From positions 38,034-102,033 of the forward strand of contig CALFBP010000025.1 of the NCBI GenBank assembly GCA_937951625.1: 64,000 nucleotides of DNA, given 5' to 3'. The notes under the pieces were generated by a model that ran no database searches, was not told the DNA's origin, and worked only from the letters and a program-made list of their open reading frames with translations. Of this stretch, positions 6,035 through 17,830 are shown piece by piece; the first letter of the stretch is position 1, and the number at the start of each line of letters is the position of its first letter. This stretch comes from an uncultured Thermoguttaceae bacterium (GTDB taxonomy: Bacteria; Planctomycetota; Planctomycetia; Pirellulales; Thermoguttaceae). The position numbers and the translations under genes are program-made.

Positions 6035-6646
6035 TCATGGCTCGATACCGACCAGAACAAGTGGGACGGCTGGAACTCCTCGGCCCTGGCGAACGACATT
6101 GTAAAACTCGCCCTCGTAATAGGCGACACCAGAACTCATCTGGCTCTGGAGAGACTTCATCGGAAGTATTTCGATTCCAACGTCAATATGGTCGCCCACA
6201 TAAAAAGCGAGCTGTTTGACAAAGAGGTCATAAGCCACGAACGAATACTTCCCAAATTGAACTTCGACAGCTACTCGGTCCTTTACGAAGTCGGTTTGGT
6301 TGTAGCTGTAAATCGCCTTCTCGCCCGCCGCTTCAATCTCTCTTTTCTGATCGTGCGGCGACAGCGTCAGCGTTTTCCGGATCAGCTTCTCGCTTCGTGT
6401 GACCCAATAGCTTACCCGGCTCTCTTGCCATCCCTTTGCGCGAAGAAGTTTCTTGAACGCGGCATTCATGTCGATCGGGCTGAACAAAAGATCGCCTCTT
6501 GACCTCTTCTCTCTGGATACCTTGGTGCGACAATTATTAGCATCCACCGCGGAGACCACGCTTTGTATTTCGTTCCAAAGGGTTGGCTGGTGAACCAGAA
6601 GAAACTCAAGCCCATTCAGATGGGAGTAGGTCTCAGCAATATTCAT
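6035..6646 (-). CDS. Type II restriction endonuclease, BstYI-like (predicted R^GATCY)
   Basis: The 203-residue protein resembles BstYI of Geobacillus stearothermophilus, as I recall that sequence, along its whole length. Shared landmarks are YSHLNGLE at the N-terminus, the block NQTDFVKDRVAVEVQFGKYSF, then AYDLFVKQ, AFYVGD, EILPMK and the ending GRGVPAVPLVL. Asp119, Glu128 and Gln130 match the BstYI/BglII active site, where Gln replaces the Lys of the usual PD-(D/E)xK motif. BstYI cuts R^GATCY, so the same specificity is predicted but not proven. The start codon overlaps the methyltransferase stop by four bases (ATGA), which indicates translational coupling with the modification gene first. 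Base composition is clearly less GC-rich than the flanks, a sign of transfer. Confidence 0.93.
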   Translation of the reverse strand: MNIAETYSHLNGLEFLLVHQPTLWNEIQSVVSAVDANNCRTKVSREKRSRGDLLFSPIDMNAAFKKLLRAKGWQESRVSYWVTRSEKLIRKTLTLSPHDQKREIEAAGEKAIYSYNQTDFVKDRVAVEVQFGKYSFVAYDLFVKQLAFYVGDHIDVGIEILPMKSLQSQMSSGVAYYEGEFYNVVRQGRGVPAVPLVLVGIEP

Positions 6647-7611
6647 CCCTTTTTCCCGTACCTCGCGGTTCTCTCGAAGAGCGTCATCTGTTCGGTCTCG
6701 TTCTTCCAGGGGGCGCGGGTGAGACTGTTCCCGGCTTCGACAGGGTCATAAATGGGCCTATCCATAGGACGGGTCCGCAAAGTTCCCTCCAACTCCTGCT
6801 GAATCCTCTTTCGTGCAAGCTTGACATACTCTGGAACGACCTCGGCGCCTCCACCCCGGCGGCCATGCCGGATGGCGGCAATCACAGAAGTCCCAGTTCC
6901 TAGGAATGGATCGAAGACCCAATCTCCCTGATTTGTGAGACAGAGCACCAATCGTTCGATCAGCTCAACCGGGAACTGGCACGGATGCTCGGTCTTTTCG
7001 ACGTGGTTGCTTTTTACATTCGGAATCACCCACACATCCCCGGGATTCTTGCCCAGGGGGTTGCATGAATACTGGCCAGCCTTCGGTCCTTTGAAATACT
7101 TTTTGCCGGGATATTTCTGGGGGATGCGCACGGGATCAAGATTGAACACGTACTCGTCGGATTTGGTGAACCACATGATCGTTTCGTAACGCCCAGAGAA
7201 CCGACGTGTGCAGTGTAACCCATGCTCGAAGTGCCAGATGATCCGGTTCCGCATCCTCAGCCCCAGACTTGAGAAAACGGGGTACAGGACGGTGTCCAAA
7301 GGGATGATGGTCCCCCGCTCAACATAGTTTCCCACCTGCCAGCAGATGCTGCCTTTGGGGGACAATGTCCGCACGCATTCGGCAATGACCTGCGCCTGTT
7401 GATCGAGATAGACGTCTAGGTGGAGTCTCTTTTCGTATTCCTTGCCGATGTTGTATGGCGGTGAGGTAACGACGAGCTGAAGCGATTCGTCGGGAATCGT
7501 CTTCAGCAAAGCAAGGCAGTCGCCAGGAAATACTACGATGGATTCCGAAAGGGCGAATTGCTCCGAAATCGCGGTGTTCCGGCCGAAAAAGGATTGATCG
7601 AGTGCGGTCAT
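6643..7611 (-). CDS. DNA methyltransferase of the BstYI-like restriction-modification system
   Basis: Site-specific amino-methyltransferase that should protect the site cut by the adjacent nuclease. The catalytic motif IV (TSPPYNIG) comes first and the SAM-binding motif I (FDPFLGTGTS) near the C-terminus, which is the beta-class order. TSPPY is typical of N4-cytosine methyltransferases such as M.BamHI and of some N6-adenine enzymes, so N4-cytosine methylation of the GATC-containing site is the best guess. The ATG at 7611 follows AGAAGAGGA; an in-frame start at 7668 would add 19 residues that look non-coding. No controller (C) protein gene is visible. The ORF ends inside the first codon of the nuclease gene. 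Confidence 0.92.
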   Translation of the reverse strand: MTALDQSFFGRNTAISEQFALSESIVVFPGDCLALLKTIPDESLQLVVTSPPYNIGKEYEKRLHLDVYLDQQAQVIAECVRTLSPKGSICWQVGNYVERGTIIPLDTVLYPVFSSLGLRMRNRIIWHFEHGLHCTRRFSGRYETIMWFTKSDEYVFNLDPVRIPQKYPGKKYFKGPKAGQYSCNPLGKNPGDVWVIPNVKSNHVEKTEHPCQFPVELIERLVLCLTNQGDWVFDPFLGTGTSVIAAIRHGRRGGGAEVVPEYVKLARKRIQQELEGTLRTRPMDRPIYDPVEAGNSLTRAPWKNETEQMTLFERTARYGKKG

Positions 7612-7767
7612 TCCTCTTCTCTCAGCGCTACCGTTCTCGTGAGGCCAGACACGCCTATAGCCTGACAAGTCGGGAATCCCACGTCAATGTGGGTTCTGAC
7701 CGAACGGCTGGACACCGCTGGACACTGCTTCGAATCCCGCCAGATGCGAATCACTCGCAACGTGCGA

Positions 7768-8092: not shown

Positions 8093-8782
8093 TTAAGTCG
8101 AGGCGAGGCGGCGCGCCATCTGCCTTACCAGCTCGCCGTCCAGGGGGCCCTCCCGGCCGTGCCGGCACACCGCCCCGCGCACAGCCACGTAGTCCGGCCC
8201 CAGCGCGGCGACCGGGCCGATGGTCTCGATCGACAACGACCCACCCAGAACAGCCAACATCCCCTCTTGTTGAATAGCACGGATCCACGCGGCAATCGAT
8301 TCCAAAGGCCAGTGATCCAATAGTGTTCCTCGACCTTTGGCACAGGTATCCACAAGCACCGCAGCGCAACTCAGTCGGGTAGCTTCTGCAAGCACCAAGG
8401 CTGGCTCGGGAGCATCCACAACTTCCCAGTCTGCGTAAATTACCGCGACGGGTCGTGTGGTAGAGGCAATATTATGGACAAACGTGGCCCATCGCTCGCG
8501 CCAGTCGGGCAGGCGGGCGCAGCCGGCCAAGCCGATCTTCGCAAAGGCCACGCCACAGGGAATGGAAATCCTTTTCTCCCCATTCAACTCGGGCAGCTCC
8601 CCCAGCGCCAAGCTTACGGGCACTTCGCTAGCGACGGCCGCAACGACCTCTTCGACGGATCGCGGGCTTGGAGCTCCGAGGGAGCCTTTGGCCGGGTCCT
8701 TGACATCAATCAGATCCGCGCCCGCTCGAAAGGCTGTCCCGGCTTCCTTTGCGTTGCGAACACTGACCAACAGGCGAGTCAT
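8093..8782 (-). CDS. mfnB: (5-formylfuran-3-yl)methyl phosphate synthase-like enzyme (MfnB/DUF556)
   Basis: TIM-barrel enzyme of the MfnB (DUF556) family, 229 residues, which in methanogens joins two glyceraldehyde-3-phosphate molecules in the first step to the furan of methanofuran. The signature DVKDPAKGSLGAP is at residues 26-38 and contains Lys28, the expected Schiff-base lysine. Lys82 (AKIGL) and Lys149 (TCAKGRG) match other conserved lysines of the family. A phosphate-binding GGSLS loop lies near residue 178. Planctomycetes and methylotrophs use H4MPT- and methanofuran-dependent C1 oxidation, so a role in that cofactor route is likely. The other genes of the pathway are not in this window. 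No strong ribosome binding site is seen. Confidence 0.85.
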   Translation of the reverse strand: MTRLLVSVRNAKEAGTAFRAGADLIDVKDPAKGSLGAPSPRSVEEVVAAVASEVPVSLALGELPELNGEKRISIPCGVAFAKIGLAGCARLPDWRERWATFVHNIASTTRPVAVIYADWEVVDAPEPALVLAEATRLSCAAVLVDTCAKGRGTLLDHWPLESIAAWIRAIQQEGMLAVLGGSLSIETIGPVAALGPDYVAVRGAVCRHGREGPLDGELVRQMARRLAST

Positions 8783-8874: not shown

Positions 8875-11800
8875 TCAATGCCGGCGGCGGCTGGGAGCGC
8901 TTTTGAGGATCACATCCAAAGCCCTTTCCACCCGCTCGGCGTTGGCCTTCTTCAGCGGAATGATGCTTACGCTCCGCGAGGGGTCGCTGCCGGCGGCCCC
9001 GTCCAAGGTGTTGACCACGCGCTTGATCTCCTCGACCAGCGGGGCGGAGGCCATCACGACCAGCGAATTGGTGGTCGTTTCGACACTCAACGCCTCGAGC
9101 TGGTTGTGGAACATGTCGCGAAGGATCCGCTCCATCCGCGCGGCGTCGGTGTTCTTCACCGGGATGAGGTGCATGCGGTCCGCGGCGAGGGAGTCGGGCG
9201 GCTCGGGGGTGTCAAGGACCTTGATCAGCGCCTCGATGGCCGTGCGGTCGCTGCGGCTGGCGTACACCACGAGGGCGTTGAGCCGGTCGTCGGGCACGAA
9301 GACCACCGACCCACTCGTGCTCCGCCAACCGCCGGTCGTTCGCCGAAATACCTGTTGGAGCGTTTGGGCCACGGAACTGGCTTTCGCGTTTTCCAAGAGG
9401 TAGACGCTGTAGTTTTTCCCAACCGTCCCCCGCTGACGCGACAAGGCGCGCAGCAATTCCTCGAACTGGGCCAAAGCGGCAGGGTCGTCGGAGCGGATCG
9501 TCACGGAGCCATCGCCGGGGATGACGAGGATCGGCGCGTTGGGGCTCCCTTCCGCAGCCGTGGCTTTGCTTGGCCGCCAGCCTTGGTCGTCGGCGGGCGG
9601 GGTTTGAGGTGGCGGCGTTTTGGTTTCTTCAACGGGCGAAGAATCCTTTGGTCGTGCGGGGCTGGCACGCCATTGCGAATCCTCCGGCGGGAAGAGCACT
9701 TCGTTGCGCGGCGGCGCGTTGTTCGAAGGTTCAGGCCCTGCGGCCGGCTGAATCCGTTTTTCTCCCTTGCTGGCCGGGCTCGACCCGCGCCCCTGGATCG
9801 GAATCTCGTTGGCCGGTTTCAAGACGTGGATCGGGTTTTGCCGCATTTGCGGCCAGATTTTTTGGATTTCCTCGATGGCGGCCGAGAGGTCGCCGTCGAA
9901 CGAGATGGTCCGCGAGCGGCGGCCGTCGCCCTCGGAGAGCGTCCCCAGCCCACTCTCGCCTAGCTTGATGAGCAACTCGCGAATTTTCGCCATTTGCTCC
10001 TTGGTCGCGCGGACGAAGAGTTGTTGGCTCGTGGGGTCCACGTCAACGGAGGGACCGTGGTCCAGGTAGCCATAACCGTCGCCGAAGAGCCGTCCGATGG
10101 CCATTTCGGCGGTCCAGGGATCGACCACTTCCAGCGTAAAGATTTCCATGATCCGCTCTTCGCCCTCCATCTGTTCCACGACTTTTTGAATGGCGGCCTG
10201 ATGTTCGGGCCTGGCGATGGCGACGATCTGGTTGTTGCGGCGGTCGTAGGAAAGCTTCGCCTTGATGCCTTGCTTGGTCATCAACTCGTTGAGCACCCGG
10301 AGCACCGAGTCGCCCTGGGCCTCCTTGAGCGGATAGAGCTGGAGTCTGGCGGCGGAATCGGCCTTGGCCTCCTGTTCCAACTGATCGATCAGGTTCTTGA
10401 TGGTCTCGTGTTGGGCGGGCGAGGCCATGGCCACGATGGCGTCGTTCTGTTCGTCGAGCGTCAACTGGACGTCGCGGCGTGTGCGGAAGAGGCCTTGGAG
10501 CACGGTCAGCAAACTGGCCGGATCGGCATAGGTCACCCGATGCACTTGCAGACGTGGGGCCTGGCTTTTTTCGTCGCGCCGGTCCATTTCTTCGACGGTG
10601 GCCTTGATTTTGGCGTGGTCGTCCGCTGTAGCGGTGACCACCAGGCTGTGCGTCGCGCTGTCGAGGGCGATGTCCGCTCCGGGCACGAGCGACGTCAGCA
10701 CCGTCAAGGCGGCCTGCGCCTCGGCCCATTGAAAGCGGTACACTTGCGTCGTGCGCTCTCCGAGCTTCGATTCCGTGTCGAGCTTTTCGATCGTGGCTTT
10801 GATTTCCTTGTGTTGCTCGGGCCGGGCCCAGGCGATCAAAACGTGGGGTTCCGTGCCCGTGGAGAATCGAACCTCGGGAAAGGCCGTGGTCAGGAAAGGG
10901 ATGGCGACCCGGGCGGTCATCGCCTTGAGCGAATACACGGCCGCCTGGGCGGCCTTGTCGGGCGGGTCTTTTTTGCCGAGTTCGTCGATGGCCGCCTTGA
11001 TCTTTACTTGGTCGTCGGGTCGGGCCCAGGCGAGGATCTTTCCCGGCTCGCTGCCGGCCGAAAAGCGAGCGTCGGGAAACATCGACGCGAGCAAGGACAA
11101 GGCCCCGCTGACTCCCGTCGGCCCGGCGGATTCCATCGTGTAGGCCACCAACCGGAAGGCCCGTTCCGGCGGGTCCTCCTGTGACAACTGCTCCACGGCG
11201 CTTTTGATGGCCTCGTGATCGGAGGGCCGGGCCCAAACCACGAGTTTTTCCGGGTCTGCCCCGATGGAAAACAGGGCGTCGGGAAACATCGACCGAAGAG
11301 CCGCCAGCGTGTAGTACGACGCGCTGGAATAGGCGGATTTGAAGGGATAGACCACTATCTTGCGTGCGGTTTCGGGGGGATCCTTTTTGGACAGTTCGCC
11401 CACGGCCGCGGCGATCTTTTTTTGATCGTCGGGTCGGGCCCAGGCCACGATCTTGTTCGGCTCTGTGCCTGCGGCAAATCTCGCCTCGGGGAACATCGTG
11501 GTCAGGATCGAGATTGCCCCGCTCAGCCCGTAGGGACCCGACCCCTCCACGGTATAAACGACCATTTGCCGGGCCTTTTCGGGCGGTTCCTTGGCGGAAA
11601 GCTCCTTCACGGCGGCGGCGATCCGCTCATGATCCGTGGGTCGGGCGAAGACCACCAACTTGTCCGGTTCGCTGCCGTAGGTGAATTTTGCGTCGGGAAA
11701 CATGGAGGTGAGGATGTTGATGGCCCCACTCATTCCCGCCGGCCCGGTCGTCTCCAAGGTATAAACCACCAATTTGCGGGCGTTCTCCGGCGGATCTTCG

Positions 11801-14800
11801 GCGGAGAGCTGGTCGATGGTCGATTTGATGGCATCGTGTTCATCAGGGCGAGCCCAGACGACGAGCTGATCCGGTTCCCTCCCGGCGGTAAATTGGGCGT
11901 CGGGAAACATCGACCGCAATACCAGCATCGTGTAGTAGGGCGCGCCGGGCGTGGCCGAGTGGACGCGGTATACGACAATCTTCCGAGCCTTTTCCGGTGG
12001 TTCCTTTTTAGAGAGTTCGGCCACGGCCGCGGCGATCTTTTTTTGATCGTCGGGTCGGGCCCAGGCCACGATCTTGTTCGGCTCCGTGCCGACGGCGAAC
12101 TTGGCCTCGGGAAACATGGTGGTCAACACCGACATCGCCCCACTCACCCCGGACGTGCCCGTGGTCTCGATCGTGTACACCACCATTTGGTGCGCTTTTT
12201 CGGGGTCCTCGCTTGCGATTTGGTCGATCGTGCTTTTGATCTGATCGTGCTCGGCGGGACGGGCCCAAACCACGAGCTGATCGTTTTCCGTGCCGATGGA
12301 GAACTGGGCCTCGGGAAACATGCTCTTCAAGAGCGAGAGGGTGTAGTACGACGCGCTGGGGTTTGCCGCCCGAATCTTGTAAACCACCACCCTACGGGCC
12401 TTCTCTGGCGGTTCCTTTTTGGCCAGTTCGTCGAGGACGGCTTGGACCCGTTCATGGTCGGCCGGCCTCGCCCAAACGAGGATTTTCTGCGGATCGGGGC
12501 CGGGATTGACTCTGGCCTCGGGAAACATGAGCGACAGCGCCGAGATTACCCCGCTCAGTCCCGCCGCGCCGGTCGATTCCACCGTGTAGATGGCCATTTT
12601 GCGGGCCTTGTCCGGGGTCTCGGGCGTGGAGAGCGTGTTGAGGGCCTCGCGGATCTCGGCCTCTTGAGCCGGCGAAACCCAGGCCACCAATTGATCAGGT
12701 TCGGGGCCGACAGCAAAGAGCACCTCTGGGAACATCGTGCGGAGCACCGACAATACACTGGACACGCCCCCCGGGCCTTGCTTCTCCAGCGTGAAAACCG
12801 AAAGCCGATGGGCGCTTTCGGGCGGCTCCTTCTTCGACATCTCGTCGATCATGTTTTTGATCGCGGGATGGTCGGAAGGTCGTGCCCAAACAAATATCCG
12901 GTTCGGGTCCGCCCCGTAGCCGATGCTTGCGTCGGGAAAGGCAGAGCGCAAGATGGTCAACATGCCACGGCCCGACATCGGACTGGTGCGATCCACGGTG
13001 TAGATCACCAGCTTGTGGGCCGTTTCCGGCGGTTCCTTCTTGGATAATTCCTCGATCGCCTTGCGGATCGGCTCCTGGTCGGCCGCCCGGGCCCAGACCA
13101 CCAGTTTCGTCGCGTCCGCTCCAGCGGCGAAGGTCGCCTCCGGAAAGATTTGCCGCAAGGTCGGAATCAGCGCGGCGGCGCCATTGGGGCCAAGCGTAGG
13201 AAGGCTGTGGACCACCATTTCCGGCCGAGCGCCCGTCGCCTGATGTTGCGACATTTGCTCGATCGCCGTCCGAATCAACTCGTGGTCTTTCTTCACCGCC
13301 GTGGCCACGAGGCTATTGGTCTTCGCCTCGACGACGATCTGGGCCTTCGGCACCAGGGTCCTCAACACGGTGGCCAGCGCGGTGGGGTCGCCTCGCTCCA
13401 CCGGATACACCTGGAGGGTCTCTTTGTGCTCCGCGTCCGGCTCGACCCTCAGTTCCTTCAGCGTGCGGGCGATGATCTCATGTTCCGTAGGCCTCGCCCA
13501 AGCAAGGATCGCCCCCGACTTCGGTTCGGTAACCAGCTTGACCTCGGGCAATTGCTCCTGGAGCACCCGGATCGCCGTGGCCGGGTCGATGTCCGGCACC
13601 GGATAGACCATCAGTTTGTCCTGACCTTCGGCCGCCGTGCCGGTGTCGATCTTCTCCAACGCCGCCTTGATGGCTTCCTGATCGGCCGGTAAGGACCAGA
13701 CGATCAGCCGCCGAGTCCGCGTATCGAGCACAAACTGGGCGTTGGGGAAAAGCGTTTTCATCACGGTGAGGACGTTTTGCGGGTCCGCCGATTTGATCGC
13801 ATAGGCCACCAACTGATATTTCTCCGCGGCGGGGACCTCGAGCTTAAGCTGTTCGAGAATCTCGGAAATCACCGCATGTTGCGAGGGTTTGGCCCACACC
13901 GCCAAATGGTCGGAGTCGCTCTCCGAAACGAGTTGCATGCCCGGCAACTCCGCCGCAAGCGAGGCGGCCACCGCTTGAAACCGCTTTTTCTGCACCGGCG
14001 TGACCGGGTAGGTCACTAGTTTGCTCCGCTCATCGAGGATCGCTACGGTTTGAATCTGCTCGATGGCCCCCTTGATGACTGCATGGTCGGCCGGCGTGGC
14101 GACCACGGTGAGCCGCTTCCCACCGGGCTCCAACGTGATCTGGGCCTTGGGCGCCAACCCCTGCAACACGGTGACGATCGTGGGCGGCTGGGGCTGAGCC
14201 AGGGGGTAGAAGCGCAATTGCGGATCATCCGGGGCAGGCTTGTCCGGCTGGAGTTGCTCCAGCACCGTGCGGATGGTGGCGTGGTCGGCCGAGACCGCCA
14301 CGGCGATCAAGGTCTTGGTTTGCGGATCGACGGAGACCTTGGCGTCGGGCACCAGGGTCTGTAACAGCGGCACGAGCGTCGTCGGATCGGCCTTGGTGAG
14401 CCGGTAGATTTCCAAACGTGGCGCGCTTTCCGGCGCGGCGCCCCGCACCATTTTCTCCAGCGCTGCCTTGAGGGCGTCGTGATCCGCGCTGGTGCCCCAG
14501 GCCACGATCCGGCCCGCCTTCGCGTCGGCCACGAGCTTGGCGTTGGGCACGAGGGTTTGAAGTTGGATGACGAGCGTGGTCGGGTCAGCGCCGTGGACGG
14601 GATAGACCTCGAATCGTGGAAGCTGGTTGGCGGGGACTTGAGCTTGAATCTGGTCCAACGTCTTTTTCACGGCCTCATGCTCGGCCGGAGTGGCTGTTAC
14701 CAAGAGCCGCTGGGTTTTCGGGTCGTGCGTGATCGAAAGGGCTGGAAAGGCGCTGCGAAGCGCTTCCGTGACGCTTGCCGGGTCGACCGTGGTGATCGGG

Positions 14801-17427
14801 TACAGACGCAGCTCGGCGGCCGCGGCGCCCGGTTTTTCTGCTTGGAACTGCCGCACCACGCCGCGGATGGTCTGTTGGTCGGCGGGAATGGCGACCACGA
14901 TCAGGGTCTTCGTGGCCGCATCTACCGAAACCTTGGCGTCCGGCGCTATGCTTTGCAGCAACGGCACCAGCGTGGCGGGATCGACCCGGGTCAATCGGTA
15001 GGTCTCGACCTGCGGCGTGTTCTCGATCGACGTGCCACGCCCGAGCTTGTCCAGGGCCGCGCGGATCGCGTCGTGCTCGGCAGGAGTGGCCCAAACGACC
15101 AACTGCCCCCGCTTCGCATCGGTGGTGAACTTGGCGTTCGGCACGAGCATCTGCAAGTTGGCCGTCAGCGCCGTAGGCTCCGATCCATGGAGGGGATAAC
15201 TCTCGAAACGGGGCATCTGGTCGGAAGGCACTTGAGCCTGGAGTTGTTCGATGGCCTTTTTGACCGCTTCCTGTTCCGCGGGCGGGGCCCAGACCAACAG
15301 CCGGTTGGTCTTCGACTCTAAGATGATCTCCAGCTTGGGAAACATGCCCTTGAGCATGGTGGTCGCGCTGGTCGGATCAGCCACCGTCAGCGGATAAGCG
15401 GCGAGGACGGATTCGGCCGGGGCACTCTTTTCAAACTGTTCCACCGCCTTCTTCACCGCCTCCTGTTCGTTGGCCGGGGCCACTACCGCCAAACGCTTGT
15501 TGGCCAAATCGACACTCACCTTGGCCTTGGGCACGAGACCTTCGATCAACGTCGCCAACTCGGTGGTCGGCGGGTGGCTGAGCGGGTAGAAGCGAAGCTC
15601 GGGCGTCTCCGGTCCTGGCTTGTCAGACTGAAGCTGCTCCAGGATCGACTTGATGGCCTTCTGGTCCGCCGCCGAGGCGATCGCCACGATGCTGTTGGTC
15701 GAGGCGTCGAGGGCCAAGCGGGCGGTGGGCACGACCGCTTCGAGCATGGCGAGGGTGGTTTTCGGGTCGGCCTTGGTCAATCGATAGACCTCGAATTGCC
15801 GGGCCTGCTCGGGGGTCTCGGCCATGCCCAGGGTTTGGAGCGACTGCTTGAGCAATTCGTGCTCGGCGCCCGTCGCCCAGGCGACCAACTTGCTCGTCTT
15901 CGTGTCCAGCGTGAGCTTGGCGTTGGGCACGATCGCCTCTAGCCCCTTGAGGACCTCGGCGGCACGGGTGGGATCCACCGGATACAGCTCCAAACGCGAT
16001 TGCTTCTCCGGCGGCTGGCCGGTCTTCATCATCTCGTCGAGGATCGCCTTGACCGCCGCCTGCACCGAGGCCCCAGCATGAACGCTGAGCTGGTCCGTTT
16101 TCGGGTCCAGCACGAAGCTGTGGTTCGGGTAAAGGGTTTTCATCACCGTAAGCACGGTCGGCGGATCCACGCCCTTCAGCGGATAGATGGCGAACACCGG
16201 CGGCTCTGACGTGGGGGGCTGCGGCGCGGGGGTGGCGGGCGGCGAGATTGCCTGGATCATGGCCCGAATGGCCCGCATGTTGCCCGCCGCGTCCGTCACC
16301 AACACTTGGCCCGTCGAAGGCAACGGCACGACCTTGCCCAGCGGACTCAAAAGCGGCTTGATTTCCTCAACTACCGTGGCAGCCGGCCGCTTGTCCAACG
16401 GAAAGGCTACCCGAACCAGCTCGAACTTACCCCGGTAATCCAGTTCCTCCAGACTCACTTGCGGAACGATGTTCTCGGGGATGCCGTCCTCGACGTTGAC
16501 GCACACCAACATGCGGTCGCGGCGGATCAGCGTAAACCCCTTGGTCAACAGCACGCTGTTGAGCAAGTCGATGGCCTCCGTGGGCGTGTATTCCCGATCG
16601 TCCACATAGTTCAACGTGCCGGGCGGGGGAGCATCAAGCACGAGCGAGAGCCCCGCCTGACGAGCCACTTCCTCCAAAACGTCCACCCAACGTTGAAAGC
16701 GGAACTTGAATCGCAAGAGCGGCTCGGGCGGTGTCTGCGCGAATTGCAGCCGCTGCTCCTCCGTCAGCACTTCCGCCAGCTTTTTTTCGTTTTCCTCGAT
16801 CACTTTCGCGCGATCGGCCTCGGCAGCTTTGGAAAGCTCCTCCCGCCGCTGAGCCAATAGCGCGGCGATCTTCGCCCGTTGCTCTTCGCTGAGCTTCAGA
16901 CGGTCGGCCATCGCCGGTCGGGCCAAGAGGGTGTAGCTCGCCGGCGGCTTGGCAACCTCAGGCGGTTTGGGTCCTGCGGGTTTGGCTTCCGCAGCCTGAG
17001 ACGCTGCCGGTTTCGCTTCAGGGGGTGGAGCGTCCGAGGGTTTGGCTTCCGCGGGTTTCGCCTCTGATGGTTTGGCTTCCGCGGGTTTCGCCTCGGAAGG
17101 CGGGGGCGCTGCCGGTTTGGACTCCGGCGGTTTCGCCTCGGGTAACGGTGGGGTAGCAGGCTTTGCCTCGGGCGGTTTGGGGTCTGCCGGTTTCGGTTCC
17201 GCGGGAGGAGGTTCTGCCGGTTTCGGTTCCGATGGTGTTGGCTTTGGCGATGCAGGTTCTGCTTTGGCCTCCGGGGCTGGTGCAGGCGGCGCTGCGGAAT
17301 CGCCTGATTCGGCTCCGCTTGTGACGCCGAACAAACCCGCCAAAACTACCATCGCTCCCACGATGGCTATCCAGGGGCCGACCAAATCGAGCCGCTTTTC
17401 CTCTCGGAGTGTGTTTGTCAGCTTCAT
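8875..17427 (-). CDS. Giant secretin N-domain repeat protein (2850 aa)
   Basis: Single uninterrupted frame of 2850 residues. Residues ~17-37 form a membrane segment or signal anchor. Residues 46-165 are a Pro/Ala/Lys/Glu stalk built on PAEAKP-type units. Residues 177-230 are a helical segment with two LTxxQ-like marks (LSEEQ, LTEEQ). Residues ~236-310 resemble a secretin N0 domain and ~335-395 a secretin N1 domain. From ~410 to ~2490 about 31 further N1-like units of 64-69 residues follow (pattern: Y-P-L, dP, lxxlfPxA, D, lvvwA-P-eh, ik-iieql). A low-complexity linker and two and a half more units end at SAPSRRRH. No secretin channel domain follows. Secretin N1 domains stack into periplasmic rings, so a long periplasmic scaffold or adhesive rod is inferred. 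GAGGAG precedes the ATG. Confidence 0.85.
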   Translation of the reverse strand: MKLTNTLREEKRLDLVGPWIAIVGAMVVLAGLFGVTSGAESGDSAAPPAPAPEAKAEPASPKPTPSEPKPAEPPPAEPKPADPKPPEAKPATPPLPEAKPPESKPAAPPPSEAKPAEAKPSEAKPAEAKPSDAPPPEAKPAASQAAEAKPAGPKPPEVAKPPASYTLLARPAMADRLKLSEEQRAKIAALLAQRREELSKAAEADRAKVIEENEKKLAEVLTEEQRLQFAQTPPEPLLRFKFRFQRWVDVLEEVARQAGLSLVLDAPPPGTLNYVDDREYTPTEAIDLLNSVLLTKGFTLIRRDRMLVCVNVEDGIPENIVPQVSLEELDYRGKFELVRVAFPLDKRPAATVVEEIKPLLSPLGKVVPLPSTGQVLVTDAAGNMRAIRAMIQAISPPATPAPQPPTSEPPVFAIYPLKGVDPPTVLTVMKTLYPNHSFVLDPKTDQLSVHAGASVQAAVKAILDEMMKTGQPPEKQSRLELYPVDPTRAAEVLKGLEAIVPNAKLTLDTKTSKLVAWATGAEHELLKQSLQTLGMAETPEQARQFEVYRLTKADPKTTLAMLEAVVPTARLALDASTNSIVAIASAADQKAIKSILEQLQSDKPGPETPELRFYPLSHPPTTELATLIEGLVPKAKVSVDLANKRLAVVAPANEQEAVKKAVEQFEKSAPAESVLAAYPLTVADPTSATTMLKGMFPKLEIILESKTNRLLVWAPPAEQEAVKKAIEQLQAQVPSDQMPRFESYPLHGSEPTALTANLQMLVPNAKFTTDAKRGQLVVWATPAEHDAIRAALDKLGRGTSIENTPQVETYRLTRVDPATLVPLLQSIAPDAKVSVDAATKTLIVVAIPADQQTIRGVVRQFQAEKPGAAAAELRLYPITTVDPASVTEALRSAFPALSITHDPKTQRLLVTATPAEHEAVKKTLDQIQAQVPANQLPRFEVYPVHGADPTTLVIQLQTLVPNAKLVADAKAGRIVAWGTSADHDALKAALEKMVRGAAPESAPRLEIYRLTKADPTTLVPLLQTLVPDAKVSVDPQTKTLIAVAVSADHATIRTVLEQLQPDKPAPDDPQLRFYPLAQPQPPTIVTVLQGLAPKAQITLEPGGKRLTVVATPADHAVIKGAIEQIQTVAILDERSKLVTYPVTPVQKKRFQAVAASLAAELPGMQLVSESDSDHLAVWAKPSQHAVISEILEQLKLEVPAAEKYQLVAYAIKSADPQNVLTVMKTLFPNAQFVLDTRTRRLIVWSLPADQEAIKAALEKIDTGTAAEGQDKLMVYPVPDIDPATAIRVLQEQLPEVKLVTEPKSGAILAWARPTEHEIIARTLKELRVEPDAEHKETLQVYPVERGDPTALATVLRTLVPKAQIVVEAKTNSLVATAVKKDHELIRTAIEQMSQHQATGARPEMVVHSLPTLGPNGAAALIPTLRQIFPEATFAAGADATKLVVWARAADQEPIRKAIEELSKKEPPETAHKLVIYTVDRTSPMSGRGMLTILRSAFPDASIGYGADPNRIFVWARPSDHPAIKNMIDEMSKKEPPESAHRLSVFTLEKQGPGGVSSVLSVLRTMFPEVLFAVGPEPDQLVAWVSPAQEAEIREALNTLSTPETPDKARKMAIYTVESTGAAGLSGVISALSLMFPEARVNPGPDPQKILVWARPADHERVQAVLDELAKKEPPEKARRVVVYKIRAANPSASYYTLSLLKSMFPEAQFSIGTENDQLVVWARPAEHDQIKSTIDQIASEDPEKAHQMVVYTIETTGTSGVSGAMSVLTTMFPEAKFAVGTEPNKIVAWARPDDQKKIAAAVAELSKKEPPEKARKIVVYRVHSATPGAPYYTMLVLRSMFPDAQFTAGREPDQLVVWARPDEHDAIKSTIDQLSAEDPPENARKLVVYTLETTGPAGMSGAINILTSMFPDAKFTYGSEPDKLVVFARPTDHERIAAAVKELSAKEPPEKARQMVVYTVEGSGPYGLSGAISILTTMFPEARFAAGTEPNKIVAWARPDDQKKIAAAVGELSKKDPPETARKIVVYPFKSAYSSASYYTLAALRSMFPDALFSIGADPEKLVVWARPSDHEAIKSAVEQLSQEDPPERAFRLVAYTMESAGPTGVSGALSLLASMFPDARFSAGSEPGKILAWARPDDQVKIKAAIDELGKKDPPDKAAQAAVYSLKAMTARVAIPFLTTAFPEVRFSTGTEPHVLIAWARPEQHKEIKATIEKLDTESKLGERTTQVYRFQWAEAQAALTVLTSLVPGADIALDSATHSLVVTATADDHAKIKATVEEMDRRDEKSQAPRLQVHRVTYADPASLLTVLQGLFRTRRDVQLTLDEQNDAIVAMASPAQHETIKNLIDQLEQEAKADSAARLQLYPLKEAQGDSVLRVLNELMTKQGIKAKLSYDRRNNQIVAIARPEHQAAIQKVVEQMEGEERIMEIFTLEVVDPWTAEMAIGRLFGDGYGYLDHGPSVDVDPTSQQLFVRATKEQMAKIRELLIKLGESGLGTLSEGDGRRSRTISFDGDLSAAIEEIQKIWPQMRQNPIHVLKPANEIPIQGRGSSPASKGEKRIQPAAGPEPSNNAPPRNEVLFPPEDSQWRASPARPKDSSPVEETKTPPPQTPPADDQGWRPSKATAAEGSPNAPILVIPGDGSVTIRSDDPAALAQFEELLRALSRQRGTVGKNYSVYLLENAKASSVAQTLQQVFRRTTGGWRSTSGSVVFVPDDRLNALVVYASRSDRTAIEALIKVLDTPEPPDSLAADRMHLIPVKNTDAARMERILRDMFHNQLEALSVETTTNSLVVMASAPLVEEIKRVVNTLDGAAGSDPSRSVSIIPLKKANAERVERALDVILKSAPSRRRH
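9955..16200 (-). repeat. Tandem array of about 31 secretin N1-like repeats inside the giant protein
   Basis: I aligned the units by eye from the first one after the N0/N1 head to the last before the linker. Units are 64-69 residues long. Three classes recur in order in the N-terminal half: PRFExYP, PxxExYRLTKADP and xELRFYPL. Two classes recur in the C-terminal half. The boundaries given are approximate, within about 15 bases. Confidence 0.75.
10952..13230 (-). repeat. Sub-array of eleven near-uniform 207-bp units
   Basis: Eleven consecutive units of about 69 codons with linkers of the type KKEPPEKAR. Type a units contain TGxxGxSGAxSxL and type b units SASYYTLxxLRSMFP; they run roughly a-b, a-b, a, a-b, a towards the C-terminus. 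DNA at 11401-11463 and 12022-12084 is identical for 63 bases with a shift of 621 bases, exactly three units, which shows recent duplication or gene conversion. Confidence 0.75.
17039..17094 (-). repeat. Direct repeat in the proline-rich stalk coding region
   Basis: Two identical 26-base copies start at 17039 and 17069 (period 30 bases), encoding SEAKPAEAKP units of the stalk. Weaker copies continue on both sides through the Pro-rich segment. Confidence 0.7.
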
Positions 17428-17830
17428 CGATCAGGCTCCTCAAAAGGCAGAGCTTCGATCTTCGTGCCGGATCCCCGACACGCGACAGCCGCCCCGATCG
17501 AAATTGGATAGGAGGGTTGTAACTTTCAGGCAGGATTATCCAGGAATATTCTAGGCTAGCCCCGCTGACAGCGTGCGTAAAGCTACAACGCTACGTTTTG
17601 ATCCAAAAATACCTTATTCGGAGGGTGTGCGAGTCTCCGGTCGGGCTGTTTTTTGGCTGATCGGCCGGGAAAGGCCTACCTTGGACACTCTACTGCACTC
17701 TACCAGCCTTGCACGATCGTGGGAGGTCTTGTAGAAGTAGATTTGACGACTGGATTTGCGTTGGAGCCGAAGAACTCTGGTAATCCTCCTATTTTGCAAT
17801 ACTTATAAGGGATTTGATGTTAGCAATTTT
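17428..17830. other. Intergenic region between the giant gene and tRNA-Ala
   Basis: No convincing gene. It must hold the divergent promoters of the giant repeat-protein gene and of tRNA-Ala. A TATAAG box near 17800 could be the tRNA -10 element, but no matching -35 is clear. Confidence 0.4.

Follow-up and report, generated by a model that had tools for sequence, protein, structure and literature searches.

A giant planctomycete protein of secretin-type N0 and N1-like domains as candidate half of a split type II secretin

What is the role of a protein that carries more than thirty secretin-type domains and no secretin channel? The question is raised by one gene in a stretch of 64,000 nucleotides from an uncultured Thermoguttaceae bacterium, hereafter the window. 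A sequence-only reading had described it as one open frame of 2850 residues with a membrane segment, a Pro-rich stretch, an N0-like and an N1-like head and about 34 N1-like units, suggestive of a very long periplasmic or surface rod or a scaffold of an undescribed system. The open frame and its Pro-rich stretch are confirmed: the ORF is complete, lies on the minus strand and has an ATG start and an AGGAG ribosome-binding site (Table 1). Immediately 3' of the giant gene lies a 4-HFC-P synthase gene of the MfnB family (methanofuran-type cofactor pathway; 8093-8782, minus strand). Further downstream, a BglII-type restriction endonuclease and the adjoining N4/N6 DNA methyltransferase form a Type II restriction-modification pair (6035-7668, minus strand).

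Table 1. Layout of the giant gene and its product, with positions in the window.
Feature	Position	Strand	Basis or remark
Whole gene	8875..17427	-	2850 aa, ~309 kDa, pI 5.9, one Cys
Ribosome-binding site AGGAG	17436..17440	-	Sequence; 8 nt 5' of ATG
Residues 1-40, most likely cleavable Sec signal peptide (charged n-region, hydrophobic segment)	17308..17427	-	Hydropathy; orthologue N-termini
Residues 41-165, low-complexity linker, Pro/Ala/Glu/Lys-rich	16933..17307	-	Sequence; orthologues show variable repeats
Residues 166-236, helical domain with 'LKLSEEQRAKIAAL' motif	16720..16932	-	Predicted model: four helices, pLDDT >90
Residues 238-311, N0 domain, GspD type	16495..16716	-	Pfam, family N0 HMM, AlphaFold model, fold match
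Residues 331-395, head N1 domain	16243..16437	-	Unit HMM, predicted model, fold match
Residues 412-2489, 31 tandem N1-like units, pitch 64-71 aa	9961..16194	-	Unit HMM, models
Residues 2490-2850, conserved C-terminal module	8878..9960	-	Kept in complete giants
Residues 2675-2738, N1-like unit of C-terminal module	9214..9405	-	Pfam and unit HMM
Residues 2751-2808, N1-like unit of C-terminal module	9004..9177	-	Unit HMM

The hydropathy of the giant protein has a single strong peak (2.29), within residues 1-40. A Sec signal peptide is the likeliest identity of the segment at residues 15-39, initially taken for a membrane segment, because the orthologues have classic ones (..FGQ/DAA, ..GLGQ/EAT); an inner-membrane anchor is less likely. 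After the linker, the motif of the helical domain is LTXXQ-like by eye and is not reported by Pfam.

The N0 domain that follows is only weakly matched by Pfam GspD_N0 (E 0.002), and an N0 HMM of the family matches it with E 3.5e-41. Structures were predicted with AlphaFold2 as single chains, using orthologue alignments. The model of the head (helical domain, N0, N1 and two units) has a pLDDT of 95. Its best PDB match is PulD (6hcg, Z 13.3), with a large rmsd that comes from a differing domain arrangement, and the isolated N0 of ETEC GspD (4jtm) matches with Z 11.1 and 2.5 A across 80 residues. Judged by the model, the N0 domain is real despite its weak Pfam score, and the N0-like and N1-like head of the sequence-only reading is borne out by HMMs, model and fold matches.

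The repeats resemble secretin N1 domains. An HMM built from the protein's own units counts 34 full N1-like units, in agreement with the first estimate: the head N1, which is only weakly matched at residues 341-392, the 31 tandem units and two in the C-terminal module. The latter consists of a degenerate domain, a Pro-rich linker, these two units and a final beta-alpha half unit. The similarity to secretin N1 domains, on which the original interpretation depended, holds: Pfam Secretin_N (PF03958) matches with E 2.1e-152 and 20 stretches pass individually. In a five-unit model (pLDDT 90) every unit is beta-alpha-beta-beta-alpha, and by fold the array best matches secretin N domains (5wq8, Z 9.2; 3gr5, 1.6 A across 61 residues), which outrank other KH-like folds. 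A chance or low-complexity repeat is ruled out by the E value of 2e-152 together with structured units at pLDDT 90. The remaining Pfam matches (KH_DEAH11, LPD29, GGDEF_2 etc.) look spurious, drawn by the KH-like repeat fold. A PDB sequence search with the giant protein returns GspD entries, and the best sequence match of the array is the Deinococcus secretin 8co1 (DR_0774). The pTM of the five-unit model is 0.66; therefore, the prediction leaves the relative placement of the units unfixed. The units are diverse in sequence (mean identity 30%), and the strongest conservation of the protein lies in the head and the C-terminal module.

The channel is absent, as first noticed. The secretin domain PF00263 is found neither in the giant ORF by Pfam and HMM searches, nor anywhere in the window by a six-frame search of all 64 kb with a secretin HMM, nor in the same ORF among about 100 relatives. 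In 38/38 complete giants the C-terminal module stops 0-42 residues short of the stop codon, and the gene is therefore not truncated. The six-frame search and this conserved C-terminus also exclude a frameshifted secretin continuation. The GspD model TIGR02517 matches with E 3e-99 and reaches 333.2 bits, below its curated cut-off of 351.35 bits. The protein thus falls outside GspD proper, because the channel is absent and this cut-off is missed.

The sequence-only reading had suggested looking for the same layout in other planctomycetes. With the N-terminal part of the giant protein as the query, relatives are retrieved throughout the Planctomycetia (Pirellulales, Thermoguttaceae, Schlesneria, Rubripirellula and others). 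In the tree of the heads, a 'short' clade (100/100) separates from the giants. The short proteins have a handful of detectable units and a mostly Gly/Arg-rich tail, and the giants have about 8 to 68 units per protein. The longest relative found has 5352 aa and 65-68 N1-like units (genome G015, L061:1388-17446). The window genome encodes one giant and one short-clade paralogue of 1444 aa. This second channel-less secretin-N protein lies on contig C78 (L054:6587-10921) and has a Gly/Arg/Ser-rich tail. Going by its relatives, it should pair with the GspE of contig C33 and the secretin of contig C18.

Comparison of single units indicates how the array length changes. The units at the array ends tend to pair with their positional counterparts in orthologues, whereas units 16-27 are mostly closer to units within their own protein and look like lineage-specific duplications. 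Tandem duplication of central units therefore appears to be how the array lengthens.

The gene surroundings in the relatives point to type II secretion (T2SS). Giant-clade loci were scored for gspE only where the DNA downstream extended for 3 kb or more (n=24). In 14 of these, gspE lies 0.1-4 kb downstream of the giant, in most cases with gspF and gspG next on that strand. Two more loci (L099 and L101), with slightly under 3 kb of downstream DNA and thus outside the 24, also have gspE near the giant. In classical gsp operons the position upstream of gspE-F-G is that of gspD. The GspE proteins linked to giants form one clade (SH-aLRT 96) apart from the short-linked ones; the GspE of genome G025 was not placed. 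As raw counts that ignore kinship, a giant is present in 12/15 genomes with giant-type GspE (G025 included, for its giant-linked GspE) and in 0/25 others; the three genomes with this GspE and no giant possibly reflect draft gaps. With kinship likewise ignored, the N0-N1 head is found in 27/29 genomes with T2SS-type GspE against 0/11 without it (40 genomes). On this genomic evidence, the assignment of the giant protein as a component of a planctomycete T2SS is well supported.

At the window locus itself, no T2SS genes or secretin were found near the giant gene. The parts are scattered in its own genome: the giant lies on contig C25, a giant-type T2SS cluster on C10 and a candidate secretin on C32. 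The pairing of the three consequently rests on relatives. The C10 cluster has E, F, G, J, K, L- and M-like genes and an EF-hand gene, and lacks gspD; the L-like gene is L/PilM-like and the M-like gene is called by position and layout. No PF11356 match for GspC was found in this genome. EF-hand genes recur beside N-only proteins or gspE, usually on the opposite strand (L068:10664-11332, L070:9100-10551, L085:9267-10019, L095:17477-18166), and in several loci lie between the giant and gspE. Their product is possibly a calcium-linked accessory of these T2SS clusters.

Where, then, is the channel? Four loci (L098, L106, L143 and L105) have a gene for a true secretin upstream of the giant, and in L098 and L106 the order is secretin, lipoprotein, giant on one strand. 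These secretins fall outside a short-linked secretin group (89/97), which includes the own-genome C18 secretin, and BLAST places them nearer to the C32 secretin of the window genome than to that of C18; beyond the short-linked group the secretin tree is weakly resolved. The shorter paralogue thus mirrors the giant, with its own GspE subtype and its own secretin subtype. In both groups, each full-length secretin combines PF00263 with 7-9 PF03958 domains, and neither Pfam (E up to 1) nor the family N0 HMM detects an N0 in it. Since these secretins have no detectable N0 and the giants have N0 and no channel, the two lie on different polypeptides.

After the secretins of both subtypes comes a lipoprotein-like family with no Pfam match (L098:7417-8541, L106:7346-8560, L055:1107-2228, L056:2213-3670, L047:9837-10619), which in L047 also adjoins an N-only protein beside the T2SS. 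This family is a candidate pilotin or bridge. The secretin near L095 was set aside, being remote (25-29% identity to the others) and having neighbours that suggest a Tad-type locus. An unusual 1393-aa protein on contig C18 (L057:2174-6352) is remote from both long-necked secretins; its match to the secretin domain is weaker (PF00263, E 1e-19), and next to no N domains are detected in it.

The linkage to gspE-F-G, the co-occurrence with GspE and the nearby N0-less secretins make the giant best read as part of a T2SS with a split secretin. It is probably the N0-N1 periplasmic half of a channel-less GspD, whose partner is the N0-less channel protein. The giant would be exported by Sec and its N0 head would dock onto the inner-membrane platform (GspF/L/M). 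Then, the 31-unit array and the C-terminal module would reach across the enlarged planctomycete periplasm, and the latter would meet the long-necked outer-membrane secretin, with its 7-9 N1-like domains and its channel. Together, giant and secretin may form a conduit, or at least a physical bridge, and so do the job of the single GspD elsewhere; mid-array duplication would set the array length, with both ends fixed. Giant-secretin contact, ring-like oligomers, the docking partner and a role in the secretion of folded proteins are what we infer for this arrangement.

How the array would work mechanically divides the readings. Rings stack in known secretins at roughly 2.5-4 nm each, a rough range, and 33 units would give about 80-130 nm if rings stack. 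In the form that goes furthest, the neck would be a tube whose length can be adjusted from about 8 to 68 stacked rings, perhaps from tens of nanometres up to well beyond 100 nm. It would carry folded enzymes over the wide periplasm, and tandem duplication would match its length to the periplasm width. This is put forward tentatively and is open to doubt. A ring of 12-15 giant copies would weigh ~4-5 MDa, an extreme figure that about doubles for the 5352-aa relative, and the presence of a nearby secretin in four giant loci only weighs against any split GspD. Alternatively, one or a few copies could act as a flexible string of beads from the platform (N0) to the secretin or the peptidoglycan, with no stacked rings. 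The genomic evidence for T2SS fits such a tether equally, variation from about 8 to 68 units among related species is easier for it than for a tube of fixed pitch, and the five-unit model, with confident units and a modest pTM, has no fixed overall geometry. A scaffold that anchors the secretin is also known in GspB/OutB (PMC9239104). On the other hand, an N0-less secretin would miss its usual platform contact, which a ring stack would restore. To our knowledge, N1 domains form rings in solved secretins, and a tether is rather unlikely.

Two further readings carry less weight. The giant, repetitive, expandable and exported protein might be a stand-alone structural rod, a paryphoplasm scaffold or a surface adhesin with no secretion role; the many giant genes of planctomycetes are often thought to encode surface proteins (PMC5177795), and the window locus has no T2SS neighbour. 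The gspD-position linkage, the co-occurrence with one GspE subtype, the GspD-type N0 and the proximity of secretins argue against it and make it very improbable. Of the original interpretation, therefore, the long periplasmic structure stays plausible, whereas an undescribed system with the giant as a rod on its own, a surface protein or a scaffold is not supported, in view of the gspE-F-G linkage, the GspE subtype and the nearby secretins. The units could also be docking sites of low affinity, where exoproteins are collected or chaperoned in the wide periplasm before the push of the pseudopilus, and their sequence diversity would allow different ligands. The strongest conservation resides elsewhere, in head and C-terminal module, and such a substrate-handling array deserves the least credence.

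With the split GspD retained as the preferred reading, the planctomycete arrangement is an altered form of a known machine rather than a novel type of system. The literature search, subscription papers aside, turned up neither a channel-less secretin nor such a T2SS in Planctomycetes. These bacteria have many exported polysaccharide-degrading enzymes and an enlarged periplasm (PMC11131199). If the reading is true, a split secretin whose neck can have as many as 68 domains is a natural experiment on how a secretion machine adapts to envelope width, and a class of giant planctomycete genes gains a set of partners. With GspD (PulD, XcpQ, EpsD) the giant shares the GspD-type N0, N1-fold units and, in relatives, the gene position upstream of gspE-F-G; it differs by having no secretin C-domain, 34 N1-type domains instead of three, and a C-terminal module of its own. 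The architecture of GspB/OutB is not known to be related to that of the giant. This T2SS scaffold possibly bridges the inner membrane and the secretin, as the giant may do (PMC9239104).

The normal range of one to three N1 domains per secretin, assumed at the outset, is too narrow, and known secretins can have more than three N domains: Thermus PilQ has six rings, which measure 350 A and are said to span most of its wide periplasm (PMC5745081). Like the giant, such long-necked secretins (Thermus PilQ and Deinococcus DR_0774, 8co1) have extra N1-type domains; unlike it, they keep the channel in a single polypeptide, and Thermus has about six N domains against 34-68. If true, the planctomycete split would be the bacterial counterpart of an arrangement in the mitochondrial T2SS, where GspD is split and PF03958-only polypeptides (GspDN1-3) likewise exist apart from the GspD channel protein; a yeast two-hybrid interaction is reported there (PMC8134430). 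In mitochondria N0 is lost altogether and giant arrays are not described (PMC8134430). In the proposed planctomycete split, N0 instead belongs to the half that lacks the channel, and 7-9 N1-like domains remain on the half that has it.
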